From: Truepera sp.
Lineage (GTDB): Bacteria; Deinococcota; Deinococci; Deinococcales; Trueperaceae
NCBI GenBank assembly: GCA_032027045.1
Contig: JAVSMU010000001.1
Coordinates: 477,356 to 541,355 of the forward strand
Direction of reading: 5' to 3'
Length of the DNA: 64,000 nt
The stretch's first letter is position 1, and each line of letters begins with the position of its first letter. Shown one piece after another: positions 18,005-19,752 of this stretch. Position numbers and translations under genes: made by a program. The notes below the pieces were generated by a model that was not told where the DNA came from, searched no databases, and saw only the letters and a program-made list of their open reading frames with translations.

Positions 18005-18405
18005 TGCCCGAGCGGCGGCCATCGGCACCCGCCTCCCGGTCCGCGGCCCGGGGCACCGAGTACCACTGGGCCGAGTCGGCAGCGCGGTCGCACCTCGAGT
18101 CGCGAGGCTACGCGCACCTCGCCAGTAACTACCGGTTGAGGCGAGCCGAGCTGGACCTCGTGATGTTAGAAGGCGACACCGTCGTGGTGGTCGAGGTCAA
18201 GCAGCGCAAGAACGACCGCTACGGCCACCCGGCCGAGGCGATCGACGCGCGCAAACTCTCTCGGCTGCTTCTCGCTGCGCGGCATTTCGTGGCCTTCGAG
18301 CTGCGCCGGCCCGACGCGCGCCTGCGCCTGGACGCGGTGACGTTGCTCGGGGTCGAGGGCGACTACCGGCTCGAGCACTTACGAGACGTCGGCGGGCTCC
18401 TATGA
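18004..18405 (+). CDS. yraN: UPF0102 family protein YraN (endonuclease-like fold)
   Basis: 133 aa. The restriction-endonuclease-like core is visible: ESAARSHLESRGY, SNYRLRRAELDLVMLEGD (E-LD) and VVVVEVKQRK (E-V-K), then AIDARKLSRLLLAARHF. This is the YraN/UPF0102 pattern; nuclease activity is predicted from the fold and the cellular role is uncertain. It starts within the rsfS stop (TGATG) and ends overlapping trpF by 4 nt. Confidence 0.9.
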   Translation: MPERRPSAPASRSAARGTEYHWAESAARSHLESRGYAHLASNYRLRRAELDLVMLEGDTVVVVEVKQRKNDRYGHPAEAIDARKLSRLLLAARHFVAFELRRPDARLRLDAVTLLGVEGDYRLEHLRDVGGLL

Positions 18406-19064
18406 CCCCGGTCGCGACTCGGGCTGAGCGCACCGAGGCCAAGCGTTACCTGAGAGTCAAGATCTGCGGCATCACCCGACCCGAAGACGCGCTCGCGGCC
18501 GAGGCCGCGGGAGCTGACGCCATCGGCCTGGTCTTCGCGCCCGCTTCGAGAAGGCGCGTAGAGCTGAGCGCGGCCGAGGACATCTGCGCCGCCGCCGGCC
18601 CGTTGATCGCCCGCGTCGGCGTGTTCGTCGATGCCGAGCTGGACGAGGTTCGCGCGCTGGTCAGGCGACTTCGGTTGACCGCGGTGCAACTGCACGGGAA
18701 GGAGTCGGCCGAGTACGCCCGCGAGCTGGCCGGGGAGGTTGGCGTGGTACGCGCCCTGGCGTTCGCGCCCGGGGTCACGCCGGCCGCCCTGGCCGGCTAC
18801 CCGGCCGACGCCTTACTCCTCGATGCGCAGAGGCCCGGATCGGGCACCTCGTTCGCGTGGGAGGAGGCCGCCAAGGAGTGGCTGGCTTACCCCAGGCTCG
18901 TCCTCGCCGGCGGTCTGAACCCCGGCAACGTTGCCCGCGCCGTGAGGGCGCTCAGGCCGTATGCGGTCGACGTGGCGAGCGGCGTGGAGGTCGCGCCTGG
19001 TGTGAAGGACCCCGCGGCCGTGTCCGCCTTCGTGCGGGCCGCCCGAGCCGCCGCGTCTTCGTGA
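18402..19064 (+). CDS. trpF: Phosphoribosylanthranilate isomerase
   Basis: 220 aa TIM barrel catalysing the third step of tryptophan synthesis. RVKICGITRPEDA carries the catalytic Cys, AIGLVFAPASRRRV follows, and VQLHG, LLLDAQ (catalytic Asp), GGLNPGNV and DVASGVE are in place. The first 15 residues before RVKICGI are extra. The ATG overlaps the yraN stop (ATGA). No other trp gene is in the window, so its place at the end of a ribosome/cell-wall operon is unusual. Confidence 0.95.
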   Translation: MTPVATRAERTEAKRYLRVKICGITRPEDALAAEAAGADAIGLVFAPASRRRVELSAAEDICAAAGPLIARVGVFVDAELDEVRALVRRLRLTAVQLHGKESAEYARELAGEVGVVRALAFAPGVTPAALAGYPADALLLDAQRPGSGTSFAWEEAAKEWLAYPRLVLAGGLNPGNVARAVRALRPYAVDVASGVEVAPGVKDPAAVSAFVRAARAAASS

Positions 19065-19443
19065 TTGCTGCTCGCGCCCTAGCCTCGGCGGGCGCCCGAA
19101 TGGTCGGACCGGTGTCGACGGCCCTTGCCCGCACCGCCGTTGCCATCGGGCTTACGAGGTTATCCACAAAGCCCCGACGTTTTCCACAGGCCTGTGGACA
19201 AGTTAGGCTCCTTCGGTTCGGCCTTTCAAGGCGGCCCGATTACAGCGGCCCTTTCTAAGGCCTTGCGTCTAGGACGGCATTACTCTGACTACAGTGCTTG
19301 GCCGATCCTCATACCAAGAGGGGCCGCTCCTTGTCAAGCCATCACGGTTATCCACAGTCCTAGCGCCCTTTTCCACATGCCGCGGCCGTCGCGATGTAAC
19401 CTGACCCGAACGTGCCGGTAAGACCGAGCCTTGGGAGGAGAAC
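19065..19443. other. 379-bp non-coding gap with DnaA-box cluster
   Basis: Five 9-mers match the DnaA box TTATCCACA exactly or with one change: 19160-19168 (exact, plus), 19180-19188 (TTTTCCACA, plus), 19193-19201 (TTGTCCACA on minus), 19348-19356 (exact, plus) and 19369-19377 (TTTTCCACA, plus). The two halves repeat the same order and spacing: exact box, then the TTTT box 20-21 bp on. CCACAGGCCTGTGG (19184-19197) is a perfect palindrome joining the second and third boxes. The gap is locally less GC-rich than its surroundings. I find no gene or convincing promoter in it. It could be an origin or a DnaA-titrating or regulatory locus. Confidence 0.8.
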
Positions 19444-19748
19444 GTGAAAACGGTAACGATTCAGGACGCACGCCGCTTCTCGCTCGAGGGCGTGCAGCGC
19501 CGCCCGCTACTAAGCCAAGACGGCCTGACGGTCGAACTCGTCTGTTTCGAAGCCGGGCAGGCCGAAGACGTTAGAAACCTGGGCGCCGGCGTCGTTTACC
19601 AGGTGCTCGAGGGGGAGGTCCTCGTGCGTGCCGAAGGTGCCACCCACCGCCTGGGCAAGGGCAAGCTCATGGCCTTGGACGCGCACACGGACCACGCGCT
19701 CGAGAACGCCGGCGGCGGCCTGTTGGTGGTGCTCGCGACGCAAGCAGG

Positions 19749-19752
<4 letters not shown>
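19444..19752 (+). CDS. Small cupin-domain protein
   Basis: 102 aa single-domain cupin. GVVYQVLEGEVLVRAEG (motif 1 region) and LMALDAHTDHALENAGG (motif 2 region) are seen, but the motif-1 histidines are mostly replaced, so metal binding is doubtful. The GTG start has GGGAGGAG 3-10 nt upstream. Its stop overlaps the next gene by 4 nt (GTGA), so it is probably made together with the carboxyltransferase. Ligand unknown. Confidence 0.8.

Follow-up and report, generated by a model that had tools for sequence, protein, structure and literature searches.

The window (the whole 64,000-nucleotide stretch of Truepera sp. DNA that was analysed) contains a 379-bp gap between trpF, the constant upstream neighbour at the Trueperaceae loci examined, and a small cupin-domain gene. 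Within 218 bp of that gap lie five matches to TTNTCCACA, the 9-mer that DnaA reads in nearly all bacteria, together with a palindromic motif and a promoter-like pair (Table 1); the window has no other such 9-mer. A sequence-only reading had put five boxes between positions 19160 and 19377, in a gap flanked by trpF and a cupin gene, and each box, as well as the identity of both flanking genes, was verified, though the description of the DNA as GC-rich is only mildly apt (62% GC for the gap, 56% for the cluster itself). The boxes form two halves, the first closed by the convergent slot-0 box, which with the box preceding it makes the palindrome CCACAGGCCTGTGG.

Table 1. Features of the trpF-cupin gap and its flanking genes, in window positions; slot filling refers to 37 aligned elements
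Feature	Position	Strand	Basis and remarks
trpF, phosphoribosylanthranilate isomerase	18402..19064	+	NCBIfam best match PRK01222, E 2.4e-57, under the curated cut-off
DnaA box TTATCCACA, slot -33, half 1	19160-19168	+	filled in 30/37
DnaA box TTTTCCACA, slot -13, half 1	19180-19188	+	filled in 26/37
Convergent DnaA box TTGTCCACA, slot 0	19193-19201	-	37/37, partly a selection criterion
Palindromic motif CGTCTAGGACG (family form CGTCCNGGACG; GTCYNGGAC)	19266..19276		conserved in alignment
P_L, putative leftward promoter	19308..19337	-	promoter-like: TTGACA 19337-19332, 18 bp, extended -10 TGG-TATGAG 19316-19308
DnaA box d TTATCCACA, half 2	19348-19356	+	37/37, partly a selection criterion; ~10 bp upstream of P_L -35
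DnaA box e TTTTCCACA, half 2	19369-19377	+	20-22 bp from d; filled in 21/37
Small cupin-domain gene	19444..19752	+	Pfam Cupin_2, E 1.9e-06; lost in some relatives keeping the element

Such density is far above chance. Matches to the box with one mismatch number seven in the window, against a mean of 1.92 in shuffles of it, none of which gave seven. A sample of 10-kb pieces of the genome had 6 boxes in 580 kb, a rate at which the probability of five or more boxes per 218 bp is ~5e-16. The 2,919,400-bp single-contig genome has eight occurrences of TTWTCCACA, four at the trpF locus and two beside dnaA, and when one mismatch is allowed the only dense clusters in the whole genome are the trpF locus and dnaA-dnaN.

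The arrangement is conserved. A cupin search over relatives yielded 30 loci, the window's own counted, all from Trueperaceae and all, except the most degenerate (L019), with boxes in the same slots. In a gapped-pattern search, nearly every Trueperaceae genome proved to have this architecture, as did two f2 genomes from beyond the family, one of these two matches (G041) being that genome's own origin array beside dnaA. For the 37 elements aligned, slot 0 and box d served for aligning, which is partly why both are always filled. Head-to-tail boxes in exact 10-bp register are followed by the convergent box and then, 130-156 bp on (mostly 142-145), by box d. Some relatives use slot -23 (filled in 12/37), on the same helical face, in place of -13, and the between-slots -43 and -3 are filled in none of the 37, so the boxes shift by whole 10-bp steps and stay on the same side of the helix. 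Across genomes, the 100 bp to the left of box d is near random (median ungapped identity 0.32). Alignment of the gap across relatives, a check that the sequence-only reading had proposed, thus finds the array conserved downstream of trpF, and its argument that a duplicated spaced pair is not chance holds, pair spacing and convergent box both being conserved across Trueperaceae. With several boxes clustered outside oriC and kept in relatives, the locus has the sequence features of an extra-origin DnaA-box cluster (DBC), a kind of site that binds DnaA and represses untimely initiation, and may well be one. The element is still behind trpF where the cupin gene is gone (G017, presumably Truepera radiovictrix, and G025, whose contig stops just beyond the element and for which the loss rests on a whole-genome cupin search) and where cupin and carboxylase genes are both gone (G008).

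Between the halves, the palindrome CGTCCNGGACG stands ~81 bp left of box d, its strict form in 22 of the 37 elements against a shuffle mean of 0.47, and it also occurs in families f5 and f2. It is the likely operator of a dimeric protein. It would fall just inside the predicted P_L transcript, and a conserved RNA hairpin was considered there and rejected, as folds of the single sequences disagree and the dyad is extended in few genomes only; given the inconsistent folds, a DNA operator is preferred. An Rfam search of the window found nothing. The G008 element (L090) has the palindrome enlarged to a near-perfect dyad, GAGAAAACCTGTC-TCT-GACAGGTTTTCTC. Of the 37 elements, 33 have TTGACA on the minus strand 15-18 bp to the left of box d (0.04 in shuffles), and 30 have TTGACA-17/18-TGNTA, or the like, which is read here as a putative leftward extended -10 promoter; a generic promoter scan did not call P_L, because its -10 is poor. 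No intrinsic terminator was found, for the leftward RNA or otherwise.

A survey of the phylum that started from trpF found box clusters directly behind this gene in f2, in f3, in one f5 genome (G052) and in the f4 genera g29 and g30 (G067, G069 and G070; missing in G068), with different genes downstream in these other families. The f5 genome has the whole module, i.e. convergent triple, GTCTAGGAC, TTGTCAA and far box, and an f2 genome (G037) has the convergent triple with GTCTGGGAC and TACCAG. Convergent triples occur in f2 and f5, f3 and f4 have parallel boxes only, and the orientation of the second half varies between families; no cluster follows trpF in g20 and g25 (probably Thermus and Meiothermus), in several further genera or in most Thermaceae, so that part of the phylum can do without the element. 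Downstream of the boxes behind trpF, G037 has convergent parB-parA-rsmG, usual oriC neighbours (L305 976-3180). The distance from dnaA to trpF is ~30 kb in G017, 45 in G042, 58 in G046, 88 in G052, 101 in G041, 119 in G038, 625 in G000, 665 in G069, 1,220 in G067 and 1,875 in G021. Proximity to oriC, as in B. subtilis, is a feature of six relatives (30-119 kb) and not of the present locus (~625 kb); a place near oriC is the commoner, and perhaps the ancestral, one, and the element is retained after relocation.

The trpF cluster is not oriC. A chromosome origin detached from dnaA had been suggested for it, with the proposal that the GC-skew minimum be sought there, but dnaA-dnaN is an origin in its own right in this genome, with boxes, DnaA-trios and the skew switch. 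There dnaA lies at ~2.79 Mb on the minus strand, the order being mnmG-like gene, dnaA, box array, dnaN-like gene (genes named by eye), and the array has two TTATCCACA and several approximate matches, with a run of TAGTAGTAG trios adjoining a G-rich stretch. GC skew over a sample of 60 10-kb stretches, of which one was masked, gives a best origin at 2.78-2.88 Mb; the arm difference there is 0.034, above the 99th shuffle percentile of 0.027. The trpF cluster, at 496.5 kb (0.4965 Mb), is mid-arm, without skew change and, if the contig is circular, ~625 kb from dnaA. DnaA-trios, present at the dnaA-dnaN oriC, are found in 0 of the 37 trpF elements. Moreover, oriC boxes in the phylum diverge, those on the minus strand preceding those on the plus strand, and 14 of 15 dnaA loci lack a close convergent pair, whereas the trpF element is built on one. 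With neither skew switch nor unwinding element or DnaA-trios, the locus was rejected as chromosome origin. The sequence-only reading had said that its proposal would fall if oriC were elsewhere and the boxes not conserved: oriC is elsewhere, and the boxes are conserved. That the locus is a second or alternative origin, for which its dense high-affinity boxes, the sole such cluster besides dnaA-dnaN, might be cited, is exceedingly improbable given the place of the skew switch, the missing trios, the convergence of the boxes and a distance from dnaA of at least 30 kb wherever both were mapped. Nearly all relatives examined retain the pattern next to trpF, so it probably marks a site of control and not another place where chromosome copying begins. 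Elsewhere in the genome, a ~37-bp unit, GCGTCACTCAGGCGGCGTTGGCCCTGCTCCTGGGC, occurs in several tandem copies between the mnmG-like gene and dnaA (L003 2767-2990; C1 ~2.7918-2.7920 Mb), and three box-like 9-mers recur at identical spacing at C1 878410-878859 and 1075368-1075817 (L005, L006), which points to a duplicated segment (perhaps an rRNA operon).

A different possibility, to be taken seriously though on balance doubtful, is that the role of DnaA here is confined to transcription, boxes d and e with half 1 switching P_L (the source of a small RNA) and perhaps also a rightward cupin-carboxylase promoter. The fixed distance of P_L from box d in the 33 elements and a TANNNT resembling a -10, seen by eye to the right of box e in many relatives, are in keeping with it, as is the regulation of several promoters in this manner by B. 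subtilis DnaA (PMC4447404); at the DnaA-regulated sda and ywlC promoters of that organism, too, a box is directly upstream of a promoter-like -35. The trpF element, however, differs in persisting without the promoter-like pair (L015, L034, L053, L090) and while downstream genes change or vanish, and no terminator turned up for the supposed leftward RNA. A promoter of the cupin operon alone was rejected, the element outliving cupin loss. It is very unlikely that a protein other than DnaA reads TTNTCCACA here: the boxes often have C or G in third position (TTCTCCACA, TTGTCCACA), unlike strict TTATCCACA, but TTGTCCACA and looser variants are present in this genome's dnaA-dnaN origin as well, and the 9-mer is an established DnaA target nearly throughout bacteria. 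DnaA of D. radiodurans binds both TTATCCACA and TTTTCCACA in vitro (PMC7988490). Hardly more credible is a relic of an ancestral origin-proximal cluster with its function gone; the element is origin-proximal in several families and distant here, but the slots are exact across genera amid near-random DNA, even far from dnaA (G000, G021).

The reading preferred here, and a fairly probable one, is that of a selected, non-origin DnaA-binding control locus anchored at the trpF 3' end. DnaA-box clusters, datA and DARS sites act on the free or ATP-bound DnaA pool. DnaA would fill the convergent group, in which one inverted box faces two parallel ones, as well as the second pair ~143 bp away, probably with looping, so lowering or resetting that pool, and P_L between the halves might be controlled by the DnaA complex or, as a regulatory input, transcribe through half 1 and strip it of DnaA. 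For such a control locus speak a cluster far above chance and unique outside oriC, exact slots kept while the flanking DNA is near random, persistence after loss of downstream genes, the clusters behind trpF in other families, the closeness to dnaA in six relatives, the contrast with the divergent oriC boxes, the in vitro binding by D. radiodurans DnaA, and an orientation order shared with the E. coli DARS1/2 cores; against it are a distance from oriC that varies from 30 kb to 1.9 Mb, unlike datA and DARS2 and unlike the position-dependent titration of B. subtilis (PMC5010248), a convergent spacing of 13 or 23 bp versus 14 bp in E. coli, and the differences in orientation and the absences among other families and genera. 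The titration or reactivation that the sequence-only reading had suggested is the leading, plausible reading, and titration alone, as demonstrated for the B. subtilis cluster (PMC5010248), would be equally compatible. As transcription through datA or DARS is reported to harm their function (PMC5010248) and DnaA is able to block transcription (PMC10950094), an internal promoter would be a sensible control input.

Comparison with known sites gives partial likenesses. In the DARS1 and DARS2 cores, recomputed from MG1655, box I (+) is followed by II (-) 14 bp on and III (-) 12 bp further, an arrangement also given in the literature (PMC5742627, PMC8682772). Reversed, the trpF element has slot 0 as box I, slot -13 or -23 as II and the next box as III, and like those cores, with their one inverted box facing two parallel ones, it is non-coding, intergenic and outside oriC. 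DARS geometry brings ADP-DnaA head-to-head, with loss of ADP. The three-box core with inverted box I is thus present, but the spacing, 14 and 12 bp in DARS, is 13+20 in this genome and 23+10 or similar among relatives, and because of this difference the element is not filed as DARS. E. coli datA likewise has two box groups ~140-160 bp apart outside oriC, but its essential boxes point one way and accompany an IHF site (PMC5742627), whereas the trpF element has one inverted box and the IHF consensus, WATCAANNNNTTR, is absent from the window. The B. subtilis and Streptomyces clusters (Okumura 2012; Smulczyk-Krawczyszyn 2006, as relayed in PMC4585315, PMC5010248 and PMC5742627) are similarly high-affinity, intergenic and outside oriC, with origin-proximal counterparts in several Deinococcota; the present locus is set apart by its fixed two-part geometry, embedded promoter-like pair and palindrome, and its ~625 kb from oriC. 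The genome encodes only one Bac_DnaA-domain protein, so no Hda was found. More tentatively, and with well under even likelihood, the locus may represent a DARS-like reactivating (or inactivating) site beyond Proteobacteria, ancestral to Deinococcota, working without Hda or IHF consensus and tying DnaA activity to another signal through its embedded promoter and operator.

How DnaA is limited beyond E. coli and B. subtilis is poorly known, and in the literature searched, which was covered in part, no report of extra-origin DnaA clusters in Deinococcota was found. A locus that sequence can find in many genomes, the cultured Truepera radiovictrix among them, opens DnaA regulation in this phylum to direct testing, and differences in spacing, orientation, position and loss of the element offer a natural series for comparison. 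A scan of the genome collection for TTGTCAAG-N-TTATCCACAG returned Trueperaceae and also unrelated matches: TTGTCAAG followed by TTATCCACAG 7-11 bp on recurs in many Psychrobacter and Lactiplantibacillus/Liquorilactobacillus genomes (L163-L232), often with more boxes around and with no dnaA match in the stretch, and these pairs are possibly other extra-origin DnaA loci.
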